DNA of 5,766 nucleotides from JAMORN01 sp027063545 [NCBI: bacterium]. Lineage in GTDB: Bacteria > JAMORN01. Within the stretch, counting starts at the first letter, position 1. Every line of letters starts with the position of its first letter. Below the pieces are notes generated by a model. That model searched no databases, was not told the DNA's origin, and worked only from the letters and a program-made list of their open reading frames with translations. The DNA lies in the NCBI GenBank assembly GCA_027063545.1, contig JAMORN010000172.1:1-5766 (forward strand). Direction: 5' to 3'. A program made the position numbers and the translations under genes. Below are positions 1 to 5,228 of the stretch, piece by piece.

Positions 1-3000
1 ACTGGATAGTTCTAAATAATTATGGGAATAATCCGGCAACCTCATCTACCGTTGCATCAGCACCTGTTTCTTTTGTTATAAGAACAAACTCTCAACTTGT
101 ATCTCCTGTAAATTTATATCCAACTCAGGGAGATTCATTTAATTATGTTGATGATACTACAATAGTATTTAGATGGACAAATGGAGGTAAAGATGCTATA
201 AAATATGAGTTATACATATTTGTTTATGATACAATAAATGGGGTAGAGGCTGCTATAAATGTTTGGAATACTGTAACAACTGATACATTTTTTATCCTAA
301 ATACACATGATGCTTTATATAAAGGAAAATTTTTATGGAAGGTTTATGCTGTAGATGACCAAGGTTTTAGTAAAGTTTCAGATCCTACATGGTTTTATTA
401 TAATGCTAAAATGGCTACTTTATCAATAAAAACTTATGGAATAATAAATGATACAACACTTCCTCTTGCCTTTGTTAGTATAGATTTAATACCTTTATCA
501 GGATCTAGTGATATTATTCCGATTGTAACAGATAATAATGGGGGATATAAGAGGGTATTCTTATTAGGTAAATATAAGTTAGTGGCAAATAAAGATGGGT
601 ATAAGTCTGAGACCAAGTATGTAGATCTACTTAAAGAGGATTCTACTTATTATGTTAGTTTTGTTTTAGAAAAAGCAGCAGGCCGTGTTATTGGTAAAGT
701 TGTAAATAAAGAGGATTCATTACCAATATCTGAAGTAAATGTAATAGCAACAAATGTCAATGGAGAAAAGAGCGAAACTCAAACAGATAAATCTGGTTAT
801 TTTGTATTAGATATACCTGAAGAAGGCTCTTGGGTAATAAATATTGAGAAAACAGGATATATATCTCCAAGCCCAAGAAATATTACAATACAACAAGGTG
901 ATATTTTAGATTTAGGCTCTATACCTATAGAAAAGGCTCCTTATAGAATTTATGGAATAATAAAGAATGAGGATGGTTATCCTATATCAAGAGCCACAAT
1001 AGAGATTATTAATCTGATTACAAATGAAGTATATGATGAGGTTATAACAGGCGATGATGGAACATATAGTTTTTATGTGCCTTATGGTAGTTGGAGGGTG
1101 TATGTAAATACTGCAGGTTTTATCCCAGAATATAAAGATATAGAGAATCTTGGGTATGATAATGAGGTTAATTTTGTCCTTAAAGTAGGAGGTCTTATCA
1201 GTGGAGTTATATATAGAGTAAACTATAATGTAGAAACAGGCGAGTTTGATCCACCTGCTCCTATTCAGAGAGAAGCAAATATAATTGCTTACAATATTGA
1301 AACTCAAGAAGAGTTTAAGACATCTCCAGATGTTTATGGTAAATATTCTTTAGGGGTAAGTTATGGTAGGTATATTTTAAAAGCAGAAGGTCCAAATTAT
1401 ATTGATTACATTTATCCAGACACAATAACTATTACTGAAACTAATAGATCTTTTACCCAAAATATTTACTTAAGAAGTTATGGTGATATTGTATCTTATA
1501 CTTTTGATACTTTAAATAATCCGATTGAAGGAGCGTATATTTCATCTTTTAAAGATAATAAATTTATTAAAGGTGTATATACAGATCAAGATGGGAAAGG
1601 TTTTTTAGAGGATTTAGAAGATGGTAGTTATACCATTTTTGCAGCAAAGAAGATGTATATTACTTCTATAAAGAAAACTATTACTATAGATTCAGGAGTT
1701 GTTGATAGTGTTTTACATTTTAATATAATAAGAGGTCCTTATAGATCTTTAAATGTTAAAGTATTGTATAATGGAAATGATTATACAGAAGGATTTTTAA
1801 ACTTAATATCTCCTTATCCAGATAAAGCTATTCTTTTAGATAATAACTATTATAATATAGATTCATTAACAACAGATATATATTATTTTAAATACATTCC
1901 TGAAAATTCAAATATTATAGGAATATATCAAGGAAGTTTTGATTTAACATCAACTACACAAGAGAATATTTTAGATACAATTTATTTACCCTTTACATGT
2001 TTATATGATGATACGTTAGCTTTATATAATGGAAATAGTATTATTTTTAAAATATATAATAGTAGTCCTTCTTTAAATATTACAGGTAAAGTATTTTATA
2101 GATATAAAGGAGAAGATGAGTATAAAGAACTTTCATTAAATAAAAATCCAACAGGTGATACTTTATATGCCACTTTAAATAATGTTATAACAGACAATCT
2201 ATTAGAATATTATTATGAAATTGCCACTTCTGATGGAAATATATATTCAAATATTGACTATCCATACTATAGTTATATACCTAAAAAGATAAAATTGGAA
2301 TATGCTAAATTTAAGCCAGCAGTGGTAGAACCTCCAGATAAAAAGATTGTATTAAAAGATTATCCTATATATTTAACAGTAGAAGGATATTATAGAGGTC
2401 AAGTTTTTTCAAACTTAATATCAAAAATAGAATGGTTTTCTTCAGATACCTCAATTTTATCTATGAATAAATCTACAACTAGAGAAGGAGAGTTTATCAC
2501 TTTATATCCTAAAAAGGTAGCCTCTAGTGTCTCTATAAGAGCTGTAGTTTATGGAACATCAGGTGAGAGGGATACACTTTTAGCTTATTTTAATATAATT
2601 GAAGGAGAAATTGATTCAGCATATATTTTAAGAAAAGATAAAAAAGTAGATGATAGAATGGTAGCAAATAATGAAGAGGCTATTTTTGTTGTTATGGGAA
2701 AAGTTAAAACCGATAGCGGAATTGTATATTTAGACCTTCCTGCTATATGGAGTATTTACCCCAAATCAGGTGGAGAGATAGAAGCTGGATATTTAACTAT
2801 AAAAAAGAATTTTGTTGGACAGATGAGGGTTATTGCAACAGTAAAAAATTATAAAACATTATATTATAATGAGTCTCCATCAACTAGGTATGCAAATAGG
2901 TTTTTACATGTATATGCACCAATAGTTGAACCTGATACAGTATCTGATTATAGAGGATTAACTATTATAGTAAATGATAGTAGTTTAATAAATTCAACAA

Positions 3001-3647
3001 CAGATAAGTTCTTTTTGTCTTATACATTAATGAGCAATTATCAAAAGCAAGTAGATACAATGGAGGTTGTAAGTAATATCTATAATCTATATATGGAACA
3101 GAACAATATATTTAACAAACCTCTTACCTTAATCTATAAAATTCCAGAGGAATTAAGAAGTAGAAAGAATTTTATGTTAGGATACTATGTAGATTCTTTA
3201 ATGAAATTTGTTTTTATTGAAAAATTAAAAAGAGTAAATGATTCTATTGTTGTAGGAAGCATAAAACATTTTTCTACTTATGCAATTTTTACAGAAAAAG
3301 AACCTGTATCAATAAAAAATGTTCAGTTTGTTCCTAATCCATTCTCTCCTTATGTATGGGCTAGGGATAATAATAGGGAAAGCCCGGGACTTGCTATAAA
3401 GTTCTATGCTTCAGTTCTTCATGATCCAGTTCCTAACATAAAGATTGAAATATATACAATAACAGGTGTTAAGGTGTGGGAAAAAGAGGTAGAAAATGCA
3501 GAAAACGGATATCAAACAGTATATTGGGATGGTAAAACATTAAATGGTAAAATGGCAAGAAATGGAAGATATATTGTAAAGATTAAAGTATGGGAAACAA
3601 CAGGGGCAGAAGCAGTTTATAAAGGATTAGTAGTCCTAATTAAATAG
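1..3647 (+). CDS. Large multi-domain secreted/surface protein with FlgD-Ig-like C-terminal module, 5'-partial
   Basis: The frame is open from base 3 to the TAG at 3645-3647, giving 1214 visible residues; the true start lies left of the window. The ATG at 411 is internal: no Shine-Dalgarno precedes it, and residues 1-136 upstream are well-formed FnIII-like sequence. Visible domains by approximate residue: end of one beta-sandwich 1-27; FnIII-like 35-134; five carboxypeptidase-regulatory/CnaB-like domains 140-576 (pattern G-x-V...P-I...A...T-D-x-x-G-x-Y/F...G-x-Y/W...GY); degenerate beta domain 578-663; Ig-like with YYYEIATSDGN 664-762; Big2-like with IEWFSSDTSILS 769-866; another Ig-like 869-973; domain ending HFSTYAIF 976-1096; FlgD-Ig-like module 1100-1214. 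No catalytic motif, membrane helix or LPxTG is visible, and there is a single Cys (residue 666). Such proteins are normally exported and surface-bound or released; roles in adhesion or envelope scaffolding are inference. It probably forms an operon with the barrel gene 18 bp downstream. The reading frame is certain; the biological role is unknown. Confidence 0.93.
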   Translation, partial: WIVLNNYGNNPATSSTVASAPVSFVIRTNSQLVSPVNLYPTQGDSFNYVDDTTIVFRWTNGGKDAIKYELYIFVYDTINGVEAAINVWNTVTTDTFFILNTHDALYKGKFLWKVYAVDDQGFSKVSDPTWFYYNAKMATLSIKTYGIINDTTLPLAFVSIDLIPLSGSSDIIPIVTDNNGGYKRVFLLGKYKLVANKDGYKSETKYVDLLKEDSTYYVSFVLEKAAGRVIGKVVNKEDSLPISEVNVIATNVNGEKSETQTDKSGYFVLDIPEEGSWVINIEKTGYISPSPRNITIQQGDILDLGSIPIEKAPYRIYGIIKNEDGYPISRATIEIINLITNEVYDEVITGDDGTYSFYVPYGSWRVYVNTAGFIPEYKDIENLGYDNEVNFVLKVGGLISGVIYRVNYNVETGEFDPPAPIQREANIIAYNIETQEEFKTSPDVYGKYSLGVSYGRYILKAEGPNYIDYIYPDTITITETNRSFTQNIYLRSYGDIVSYTFDTLNNPIEGAYISSFKDNKFIKGVYTDQDGKGFLEDLEDGSYTIFAAKKMYITSIKKTITIDSGVVDSVLHFNIIRGPYRSLNVKVLYNGNDYTEGFLNLISPYPDKAILLDNNYYNIDSLTTDIYYFKYIPENSNIIGIYQGSFDLTSTTQENILDTIYLPFTCLYDDTLALYNGNSIIFKIYNSSPSLNITGKVFYRYKGEDEYKELSLNKNPTGDTLYATLNNVITDNLLEYYYEIATSDGNIYSNIDYPYYSYIPKKIKLEYAKFKPAVVEPPDKKIVLKDYPIYLTVEGYYRGQVFSNLISKIEWFSSDTSILSMNKSTTREGEFITLYPKKVASSVSIRAVVYGTSGERDTLLAYFNIIEGEIDSAYILRKDKKVDDRMVANNEEAIFVVMGKVKTDSGIVYLDLPAIWSIYPKSGGEIEAGYLTIKKNFVGQMRVIATVKNYKTLYYNESPSTRYANRFLHVYAPIVEPDTVSDYRGLTIIVNDSSLINSTTDKFFLSYTLMSNYQKQVDTMEVVSNIYNLYMEQNNIFNKPLTLIYKIPEELRSRKNFMLGYYVDSLMKFVFIEKLKRVNDSIVVGSIKHFSTYAIFTEKEPVSIKNVQFVPNPFSPYVWARDNNRESPGLAIKFYASVLHDPVPNIKIEIYTITGVKVWEKEVENAENGYQTVYWDGKTLNGKMARNGRYIVKIKVWETTGAEAVYKGLVVLIK
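105..404 (+). other. FnIII-like domain, in the coding sequence upstream of the apparent ATG
   Basis: Residues 35-134 of the visible protein read as a fibronectin-III/Ig-like beta-sandwich. It opens with PVNLYPTQGD, followed by strand motifs IVFRWTNGG, YELYIFVYDT and GKFLWKVYAVDDQG, and closes with DPTWFYYN. The F-x-W, Y-x-L-x-I and W-x-V-x-A-x-D spacing is typical of FnIII-like repeats in bacterial extracellular proteins. Residues 1-27 end in a similar strand (APVSFVIRT), so at least one more such domain probably lies off the left edge. This domain is the main evidence that the gene does not begin at 411. Confidence 0.75.
420..1730 (+). repeat. Tandem carboxypeptidase-regulatory-like domains, about five diverged copies
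   Basis: These are protein-level repeats of roughly 82-97 residues at about 420-677, 681-938, 942-1187, 1188-1478 and 1479-1730. Each opens with a short strand such as GRVIGKVVN or YRIYGIIKN and continues with LPISEVNVIA- or YPISRATIEI-like sequence. A T-D-x-x-G-x-Y/F turn follows (QTDKSGYF, TGDDGTYS, YTDQDGKG), then a G-x-W/Y-x-I strand (EGSWVINIEKTGY, YGSWRVYVNTAGF). Copy 4 has an insertion near its start, and copy 5 lacks the initial G-x-V consensus. The copies are diverged at DNA level, so this is old domain duplication and not an unstable DNA repeat. In known families these domains act as structural spacers or ligand-binding stalks. Confidence 0.78.
3300..3644 (+). other. C-terminal FlgD-Ig / type IX-like sorting module
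   Basis: The last 115 residues contain FVPNPFSPY, then SPGLAIKFYAS, KIEIYTITGVKVWEKE, YWDGKTLNGK, ARNGRYIVKIKV and a terminal KGLVVLIK. The order PNPFSP / I-x-I-Y-x-x-x-G / G-x-x-x-x-x-WDG-x-x-x-x-G / NG-x-Y is the hallmark of FlgD Ig-like C-terminal modules in FCB-group secreted proteins. It resembles the T9SS type A sorting domain in position and fold pattern. That it acts as an export or attachment signal is inferred from the family and from the adjacent PorV/PorQ-like gene. It could instead be only a structural Ig cap. Confidence 0.8.
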
Positions 3648-3652
3648 ATAAA

Positions 3653-3659
3653 AAGAGGT
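3653..3659 (+). promoter_or_regulatory. Shine-Dalgarno for the barrel gene
   Basis: AAGAGGT lies 6 nt before the ATG at 3666 and is close to the AAGGAGGT consensus. It sits inside the 18-bp gap after the TAG at 3645-3647. There is no room for a separate promoter in that gap, so the downstream gene is most likely expressed from the transcript of the large upstream gene, though a promoter inside that gene cannot be excluded. Confidence 0.75.
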
Positions 3660-3665
3660 ATAGTT

Positions 3666-5228
3666 ATGAAAAAGAGTATATTTTTCTTTGTATTACTTAT
3701 AATTATGGGTTTTAGTATGAATCTAAAGGCAAAAAGTGAGGATTTTTCTAATTTATTTCGTTTGGCAGTTTTTGATATAAAAAGTGATGTTTTAGATGAT
3801 TCTATTTTAGTTTTATTTACAGATAGTTTGAAAAAGGAGTTAAAGTCTTTAGGTCTTTATTATATAATACCAAAAGAAGATTTAAAAAGAGCACAAAAGG
3901 AAATAAGAAAACCAGAATTAACTAGAAAAAGAGATTATGTTAGGGTAGGAAGAAGAGTTGGTGCTGACAAAATATTTTTTGGTAGCATAAATAAAATAAA
4001 TGAGATGTATGAAATAAAAGTAAAACTTTATGATATAGAATCAAAGAGTGTTGAAAGACAAGCAACTCTTTATACTATAGCAGATTATGATAGTATTTTT
4101 AAGTTTGTTCCTGCTATTATATGGAAACTTTATTATCCACAAGATTCAACAATGATGGTTAAAGGAGTTTTTGAGGATTATAGTCAAAAATTAAATCATA
4201 CCAAAATAAATGGTATAATAACAGGCATAGGTTTTTTGAGTATATTAATCTATAATTTATATGATAAAAGACTTTTTTATGATGATGATATTTTAACACC
4301 TGTTGATTCTTTACAGATAAGTTATTATTCAATAGGACTATCTTCAATACAAGCAAGTTTTATAAATAGTGGGTATTCTGCAAGAGGAGAGGGGATATCT
4401 GCTTATATGGGATTAGCAGATGATCCTTTTTGTTTTTTATATAATCCCGCATCTTTAGCAAGAATAGAGTCAAGAGGTGTAGGTTATTCATTTATTACAA
4501 CCCCAATAAATAGTGATATATCAATTGTAGAAAATTCTATATCCTATGTAGATAATTTAACCTCTAAAACGTATTATGGAACCGCAATTGTTACAACAAC
4601 AGATGGTGGTCTTATGAGTGAACTTACATATTATCTTTCTGGAGCAATACTATTTAAAAGGCTTTGGTTTTTGCCAAAATTTTCTTTAGGTGCAAATTTA
4701 AAATTTAGAACAGCTTCATTTGGTTATGGGGAGTTATCAGAAGGAGAAGATAGGGTTAGAGGTAATGCTCATGGTTTTGGGATTGATATAGGTGGAACAG
4801 CTAATTTTACAGATTATCTTGTTGGGGGTATGGCTCTTCAAGATGCTTATAATTATCTTGTGTGGAATAATTATTTAACAAATAGAATTTATAGAGAGGA
4901 TCTTCCTAGAGTTTATAGAATGGGGTTAGCATATAAAACTGAACGCTTTATTATGACAATGGATTGGTTTAAGAGTATATATGTAGAACAAAGTGAAGCC
5001 TTTTCTTTTGGGCTTGAGTATAGTCCTTTTGAATATCTTTCTTTTAGAGGAGGATGGTTTCAAGATGGTGAGGATCAAAATAGAAAGAAATTTAGTATAG
5101 GCTCAGGTATAAATTATTTATTTAATATCCCTCCGTATGGGAAGTATGATGTAAAACTTGATTATGCTTTTGAATATTTCCCTAATTTAGTTAATACTCA
5201 TACTTTTAGTTTTATTGTTGAATTTTAA
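3666..5228 (+). CDS. CsgG/FlgO-like periplasmic domain fused to PorV/PorQ-like outer-membrane beta-barrel
   Basis: This is a 520-residue protein. The ATG at 3666 is supported by the Shine-Dalgarno and an immediate signal peptide: MKK, a hydrophobic core at 5-17, and probable cleavage after LKA at residue 22. There is no lipobox Cys. Residues 32-155 follow the CsgG/FlgO/TolB-N-like alpha/beta pattern: LAVFDI, an amphipathic helix with LTDSL-like FTDSLKKELK, YYIIPKEDLKRAQ, then VGRRVGADKIFFGSINK and YEIKVKLYDIESKSVERQ. Residues 181-198 form a short hydrophobic segment. From about 220 to 520 the sequence is beta-barrel-like. It begins with the PorV/PorQ/UPF0164-type signature ISAYMGLADDPFCFLYNPAS (NPA after a DD) and continues with alternating aromatic strands such as FSFGLEYSPFEYLSFRGGWF. 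It ends HTFSFIVEF, an outer-membrane C-terminal signal with terminal Phe. PorV proteins bind C-terminal domains of type IX cargo at the outer membrane. The adjacent upstream gene encodes such a cargo-like protein, so a receptor or anchor role is inferred. A general outer-membrane porin or lipid transporter is the alternative. Confidence 0.88.
   Translation: MKKSIFFFVLLIIMGFSMNLKAKSEDFSNLFRLAVFDIKSDVLDDSILVLFTDSLKKELKSLGLYYIIPKEDLKRAQKEIRKPELTRKRDYVRVGRRVGADKIFFGSINKINEMYEIKVKLYDIESKSVERQATLYTIADYDSIFKFVPAIIWKLYYPQDSTMMVKGVFEDYSQKLNHTKINGIITGIGFLSILIYNLYDKRLFYDDDILTPVDSLQISYYSIGLSSIQASFINSGYSARGEGISAYMGLADDPFCFLYNPASLARIESRGVGYSFITTPINSDISIVENSISYVDNLTSKTYYGTAIVTTTDGGLMSELTYYLSGAILFKRLWFLPKFSLGANLKFRTASFGYGELSEGEDRVRGNAHGFGIDIGGTANFTDYLVGGMALQDAYNYLVWNNYLTNRIYREDLPRVYRMGLAYKTERFIMTMDWFKSIYVEQSEAFSFGLEYSPFEYLSFRGGWFQDGEDQNRKKFSIGSGINYLFNIPPYGKYDVKLDYAFEYFPNLVNTHTFSFIVEF

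Follow-up and report, generated by a model that had tools for sequence, protein, structure and literature searches.

What is gained by joining a periplasmic-type domain and an outer-membrane barrel in one polypeptide, and why does the gene for such a protein stand directly behind that of a large putative cargo protein? This question is raised by an open reading frame (ORF) at 3666-5228 on the forward strand of contig JAMORN010000172.1 (C172), which was analysed over its full length of 5,766 nucleotides (nt) and is called the window here. The ORF starts with ATG, runs without an internal stop and encodes 520 amino acids (aa). Its product is proposed, with moderate confidence, to be a dedicated, tethered PorV-like cargo shuttle or anchor and so one half of a type IX-like cargo/shuttle gene pair. 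A cargo shuttle is favoured because a protein ending in a C-terminal domain (CTD) is encoded directly upstream and SprA is encoded in the genome; both domains of the protein, the recurrence of this domain pair and, in related loci, co-variation between barrels and neighbouring CTDs were also observed. The features concerned are as follows.

3666-5228, forward strand: 520-aa ORF (signal peptide, LpoB/TolB-N/CsgG-like domain, linker and PorV/FadL-like barrel)
3654-3658, forward strand: AGAGG, a ribosome-binding-site-like motif 7 nt 5' of the ATG of this ORF
3666-3731, forward strand: putative signal peptide, residues 1-22, based on the N-terminal hydrophobicity peak
3759-4130, forward strand: N-terminal periplasmic-type alpha/beta domain, residues 32-155, with the LpoB/TolB-N/PelC/CsgG fold
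4206-4262, forward strand: hydrophobic linker stretch, residues 181-199 (Kyte-Doolittle mean of 1.52 over 19 residues)
4341-5225, forward strand: PorV/FadL-like outer-membrane barrel of about 14 strands, residues 226-520
3-3647, forward strand: putative cargo ORF of at least 1214 aa, open at the contig edge, its stop 18 nt before the ATG of the 520-aa ORF
3330-3644, forward strand: putative cargo CTD (VPNPFSP...WDG...NGRY...VLIK), its start placed by eye

A PorV-like barrel had been placed in the C-terminal part by the sequence-only reading, and this is borne out by three lines of analysis. PorV_fam (NF033709 of NCBIfam) matches residues 230-520 (E 2e-15, 57.2 bits), a profile of relatives from which the window protein was left out matches residues 227-520 (E 2e-35), and the AlphaFold2 model of residues 160-520 (mean predicted local distance difference test score (pLDDT) 73.8; barrel mostly 80-97) superposes on FadL-type and type 9 translocon chains. 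Leave-out profiles listed none of the controls (200 shuffled copies and the reversed sequence); as the relatives were gathered by similarity to the window protein, their matches are a test of consistency, not a discovery. When the model was compared with the PDB, in which a family absent from the list is not thereby excluded, chain F of the type 9 translocon (6h3i and 8gl6), which we take to be PorV, aligned with Z-scores of 29.8-29.9 over 272-276 residues at 15-17% identity (8gl6: Z 29.9, root mean square deviation 3.1, 276 aligned). A single-sequence search of the PDB with the window protein gave no match at E 1, and neither PorP/SprF (TIGR03519) nor BamG (NF053685) was listed for it at E 1 in NCBIfam. 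The two domains were modelled separately, without mutual placement, because joint alignments misplaced rows.

The putative cargo contains five CarboxypepD_reg stretches, and its CTD is matched by FlgD_ig at 3417-3593 (30.7 bits, cut-off 27). Three kinds of type IX part were assessed in the genome, namely SprA, PorU and CTD substrates. SprA (TIGR04189) was identified on contig C259 with 262 bits (cut-off 200), in a 1246-aa fragment open at both ends. FlgD_ig has 14 matches in the genome, five of them above cut-off, including that of the window and one in a FlgD-like ORF. Several tails are of the NPFNP...SGVY type; the C220 protein, the sole one of these tested, passes TIGR04183 (type IX secretion system (T9SS) type A sorting domain) with 36 bits (cut-off 23).

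For the N-terminal domain, a CsgG/FlgO-type fold had been read at residues 32-155, and exactly this span is matched (E 8e-17) by a profile of 15 relatives with the window protein left out. Matches to Pfam in this part are weak: LpoB (PF13036; E 0.0026, 18.1 bits) did not reach its cut-off of 22.3, nor did DUF3280 (E 0.0076, 17 bits) its cut-off of 30.1. The AlphaFold2 model of residues 23-205 agrees with the fold and has a confident core (mean pLDDT 82.2; 112 of 183 residues at 90 or above). Its PDB matches are LpoB (Z 11.9), TolB (11.7), FlgT (11.1), PelC (11.0) and CsgG (9.9), and identity to the solved structures of LpoB, TolB-N, PelC, CsgG and FlgT is about 7-15%. By profile kinship and shared fold, the domain belongs to the LpoB/TolB-N/PelC/CsgG superfamily, and its kin in L002, L004 and L006 exceed the CsgG cut-off (PF03783). 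The earlier family assignment thus stands at the level of the CsgG/TolB-N superfamily; the nearest solved relatives, as judged from the model, are LpoB and TolB-N, not the CsgG pore. The CsgG pore carries membrane-spanning hairpins inserted in this domain. A CsgG-type secretion pore was rejected for the window protein, its modelled domain having five short strands without an additional hairpin.

The same two domains were found in one ORF elsewhere. Among 113 loci, some of them overlapping, that were read with both profiles and that are part of the matches among those listed, 12 further ORFs in seven genomes carry both, with the barrel first in all 12. A second scan, led by an Elusimicrobia fusion sequence and covering the best 80 of 201 loci by likeness to that fusion, gave 32 loci with both domains in one ORF, again barrel first (32/32); some loci are common to both sets. 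By their record labels, 20 of these 32 fusions are from Elusimicrobia, Elusimicrobiales or Endomicrobiales, and the remaining 12 are from metagenome-assembled genomes (MAGs) classified only as 'bacterium' or bear a doubtful label. The barrels of L118 and L132 (148.8 and 116.3 bits) pass the PorV_fam cut-off of 90, and those of L085 and L087 (132.7 and 110.7 bits) do so together with the CsgG cut-off (26.4 and 27.9 bits); in the NCBIfam scan that included the latter two, five of the seven fusions are, like the window protein, under the PorV_fam cut-off (39.6-48.4 bits). The CsgG cut-off (PF03783) is exceeded in four of five fusions scanned. SprA was matched in six of the seven genomes of the first set, three of them above cut-off, the exception being a genome that is 81% complete; at 1e-10 it was matched in 130 of 386 sampled genomes.

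The expectation that such a fusion might be known from candidate phyla therefore holds for the domain pair, which is found again in Elusimicrobiota and in MAGs that carry no phylum label, and does not hold for its arrangement, all of these being barrel first. A recurrence of the window's own order had also been looked for by the sequence-only reading, which had named confinement to this assembly as speaking against its idea. Confinement is what was found, in scans poorly suited to the nearest kin and with the phylum of this lineage represented, among the genomes examined, by the window's genome alone. No other fusion of the two locus sets has the N-terminal domain before the PorV-like barrel. 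In a tblastn survey of 386 genomes, 57 had a match at 1e-5 (own genome included), and no listed match outside the window covers both halves, with at most three candidates scored per genome; a single-protein scan of genome contigs gave 106 pattern matches and no relative. Near kin may have been missed, because no more than three candidates per genome were scored and the motifs of the second scan are absent from the window's N-terminal domain. A barrel with an even number of strands has both termini in the periplasm, and either domain order therefore places the extra domain on the same side.

A protein of unique order in a single draft assembly (1.57 Mb, 355 contigs, 82.7% complete) could have arisen by a sequencing error that joins two neighbouring genes. 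Such an assembly or annotation artefact is considered highly improbable: there is one open frame with one ribosome-binding-site-like motif and one leading putative signal peptide, the barrel has no signal peptide of its own except the stretch 181-199, the nearest upstream methionine (M163) would provide a poor leader, and the same domain pair occurs in other lineages.

The genes upstream of related ORFs were compared by one rule for three sets, under which a CTD match has to end near the C-terminus and a wider gap is allowed. A CTD-ending gene stands directly upstream of 19 of 35 other fusions, 49 of 88 plain PorV-like genes and 0 of 99 CsgG-type genes without a PorV match, 77 of which have an upstream ORF. 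A stricter rule with 45 fewer loci and the window excluded gave 17/36, 18/49 and 0/98, respectively, 32 of the last 98 being without an adjacent same-strand ORF. The difference between fusions and CsgG-type genes is marked (Fisher p 7e-14, not corrected for kinship). These fractions are not population estimates, as the plain PorV-like set was picked by score, a long ORF and similarity to the window protein; one genome contributes several rows, fusions to other partners are counted in the CsgG-type set, and the CTD profile is derived from 11 CTDs of the window's genome, with that of the window among them. Three proteins encoded upstream of Elusimicrobiota fusions were scanned (L118, L132 and L127), and all pass TIGR04183 with 27.5, 24.9 and 27.1 bits (cut-off 23). 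The five closest barrels, identified by tblastn in five families, lack the N-terminal domain, and all five follow a protein with a window-like tail ([NT]PFSP ... WDG ... NGRY ... VK); four of the upstream frames overlap the barrel frame and one ends about 380 nt before it.

These counts bear on a different view, in which the product is an envelope protein working through its LpoB/TolB-N-like domain, in cell-wall synthesis or stress sensing, and the barrel is a mere outer-membrane anchor. The same domain precedes OMP_b-brl barrels (L006; also L004, under cut-off) as well as PEGA, TPR/PDZ and FGE-sulfatase domains, and because it occurs before unrelated barrels and other domains it looks like a general periplasmic module. 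The fusions nonetheless share their CTD context with the plain PorV-like genes and not with the CsgG-type genes, and a role led by the N-terminal domain is judged unlikely.

Barrels and adjacent CTDs were also found to co-vary. Their distance matrices correlate over 69 pairs (Mantel r 0.686); partner shuffles within genomes, which keep species history and rest on genome labels assigned by hand, gave a mean r of 0.538, and 0 of 5000 reached 0.686. With close copies removed (59 pairs), one of 5000 within-genome shuffles was as high. The two barrels nearest to that of the window by alignment distance have CTDs ranked 4 and 5 of 68.

Were the product instead a FadL-type channel that conducts hydrophobic molecules or other solutes, its periplasmic domain receiving substrate or coupling the channel to the envelope, the CTD gene would be incidental. 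By structure such a channel is on a par with a translocon part, as FadL, CymD and TodX align to the barrel model with Z-scores of 28.4-31.2, comparable to those of the type 9 translocon chain. PorV/PorQ is in turn the sole significant sequence family for the barrel, PF03349 (FadL/TodX) was not listed for the window protein at E 1, and neither the distribution of CTD genes among the three sets nor the within-genome co-variation of barrel and CTD fits an incidental neighbour. This channel is regarded as rather unlikely, its functional precedent being the transport of hydrophobic molecules by canonical FadL proteins given in the available text of PMC12611786.

The same text describes BamG as a FadL-like outer-membrane subunit of the β-barrel assembly machinery (BAM) and reports its conservation in six of the seven other FCB phyla (PMC12611786). 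A comparable assembly accessory, in which the added domain docks to BAM or Tol-Pal, would be very unlikely here. The profile NF053685 is unlisted for the window protein, as stated above, and the cargo-linked context is unlike that of a housekeeping subunit. BAM complex chains, presumably BamG, do align to the barrel model (Z 26.5-27.1), with scores about 1-5 Z lower than those of the FadL and type 9 chains.

Several findings weigh against the cargo shuttle itself. The PorV_fam score is below its cut-off of 90 and that of the T9SS PorV equivalog (NF033710) is 15.2 bits against a cut-off of 250; as both are under curated PorV cut-offs, the barrel is named PorV-like here, a distant homologue rather than PorV. 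The structural tie with FadL-type channels counts on the same side. TIGR04183 does not match the window's own CTD, and the PorU-like peptidase (NF033707, contig C66) has 130.7 bits against a cut-off of 420. SprA was also found in eight of eight other genomes in the same check and is thus not special to genomes with fusions. No upstream CTD gene was detected for 16 of the 35 other fusions, and because plain PorV-like genes and fusions show no difference in this respect (Fisher p 1.0), the CTD context speaks for the PorV half and not for the added domain. The within-genome co-variation test rests on 27 pairs from 11 genomes, the window's pair not included, and other barrels near that of the window have distant CTDs (ranks 19, 30, 48 and 50 of 68). 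Co-variation supports pairing by descent and only suggests function, since cassettes duplicated or moved as one would match too. The exact domain order is a singleton of one assembly. Lastly, the hydrophobic stretch 181-199 may be a stop-transfer segment that hinders export of the barrel.

If the product is a tethered cargo shuttle, the large upstream protein would be exported by Sec and leave through the SprA translocon, at the exit of which the outer face of the PorV-like barrel would catch the FlgD_ig-type CTD. The LpoB/TolB-N-like domain in the periplasm would tie the shuttle to a partner, which might be the cell wall, a Tol-Pal-like component or a translocon component, and the cargo would thereby be brought to a fixed place or retained there. 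Export and localisation of the protein, binding of the CTD, the partner of the N-terminal domain and the tethering would each have to be as supposed in this scheme.

Among known systems, PorV of the T9SS of Bacteroidota resembles the window protein in its full-length FadL-type barrel, the PorV_fam match, the CTD neighbour and the presence of SprA in the genome. The window protein differs by its low identity (15-17%), its scores under curated cut-offs, the extra N-terminal domain and a CTD gene partner of its own, whereas in Flavobacterium johnsoniae one PorV serves all type A CTDs, according to the sections of PMC12618676 available. In the same sections, a PorP/SprF-like shuttle gene of F. johnsoniae commonly follows the gene of its type B cargo directly and shows specificity for that cargo (PMC12618676). 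For Porphyromonas gingivalis, PorP is described as bound to the peptidoglycan-binding PorE, and their complex is proposed as a cargo anchor (PMC9143113, available text). The arrangement at the window is alike in that the shuttle gene directly follows that of a CTD cargo and the shuttle has a periplasmic element tied to it. It differs in that the barrel is matched by PorV_fam instead of the PorP family, the CTD is FlgD_ig-like, and the fused element has the LpoB/TolB-N fold where PorE has an OmpA-like domain. By analogy, the window protein looks like a PorV-like counterpart of the SprF/PorP-PorE arrangement found in Bacteroidota, a single chain that would perform both functions. LpoB, TolB-N, PelC, CsgG and FlgT have their fold in common with residues 32-155, from which the window domain departs by its fusion to a barrel and by the lack of CsgG-type pore hairpins in the model. 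The PorV-CsgG fusions from Elusimicrobiota and from MAGs lacking a phylum label combine the same two domain families, often behind the gene of a CTD protein (19/35), in reversed order: their CsgG/LpoB-like domain is C-terminal and follows a Lys/Pro-rich, TPR or immunoglobulin-like linker.

A wider proposal, for which the odds are put at a little under even, is that PorV-like shuttles outside Bacteroidota form cognate cargo/shuttle pairs with one barrel per CTD, and that a subset of them has fused an LpoB/TolB-N-like module at either end, apparently on more than one occasion, so that a mobile shuttle became a tethered surface anchor. An outer-membrane shuttle of T9SS type is already known; new features are the fusion of an LpoB/TolB-N-like domain to it, in whichever order, and the pairing of PorV-like genes with cargo outside Bacteroidota. 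No description of a PorV-CsgG/LpoB-like fusion was found in the accessible text of the open-licence papers searched. As far as the cited literature was available, type IX secretion is described there from Bacteroidota and the FCB group, and the T9SS is placed in the FCB superphylum by a review (PMC11205867). If the proposal is true, the choice of substrate and the final placement of surface proteins can be encoded pairwise, and swapping CTDs or shuttles, or removing the fused domain, would provide a handle on where the shuttle leaves a surface protein.

The linker was considered separately. Model confidence is low over residues 160-231, which include the stretch 181-199. This type of stretch was rejected as a general part of the N-terminal module, as it was found, in a search of up to 80 aa behind the CsgG-like domain, in five of 80 N-terminal CsgG-like ORFs without a PorV match, compared with 20 of 300 background windows. 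Some short proteins have a comparable GG-rich hydrophobic stretch at their end (L015; with lower scores, L165, L168 and L020).

Other occurrences of the N-terminal domain were noted. The signal peptide and N-terminal domain (window 3666-4067) are weakly matched by the TP0183 family DNA metabolism protein (NF049867, E 0.0014), an NCBIfam family whose name may merit re-examination. In L213 (1591-3039, reverse strand; contig C208 of the same genome), a second CsgG/LpoB-like domain precedes a part that reads as an unrelated barrel without a family match, which indicates that the module is reused within this genome. By sequence reading, a CsgG/LpoB-like domain is also C-terminal in protein-kinase-like (two copies) and WD40-like proteins (L082, 2795-5392, reverse strand; L098, 955-3423), which points to a widely reused module.

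Two observations concern the barrel-first fusions. In L142 (2899-4777, Desantisbacteria) two overlapping frames encode the barrel and the CsgG-like part, either as separate genes or as a frameshifted fusion. A fusion in L147, labelled Marinifilum sp., aligns closely with that of this Desantisbacteria MAG and with the unclassified L145, and its label may be wrong.

Downstream of several Elusimicrobiota fusions, a protein of 446-488 aa with a similar tail is encoded in L118 (4495-5865), and similar ones in L120, L122, L123, L124, L128 and L132; that of L118 has thioredoxin/AhpC and metallophosphoesterase matches. At the window itself, the ORF 3' of the fusion encodes a FecCD-type permease, which is convergent, overlaps the fusion by 42 nt and is truncated at the contig end.

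Two further barrels of the window's genome were noted. The PorV-family barrel of L212 (1-1977, reverse strand; contig C124) is split after its first part by about 450-470 aa and resumes to the contig end; it scores 95.4 bits against 90 in the partial form L030, and the propeller-like insert matches PF07494 (regulator-propeller) under cut-off (E 0.0026). On contig C189 (L221, 1458-3721, reverse strand), a protein with a weak FlgD_ig tail is encoded directly before a 316-aa barrel-like ORF without a family match, and this locus is possibly another cargo/barrel pair.

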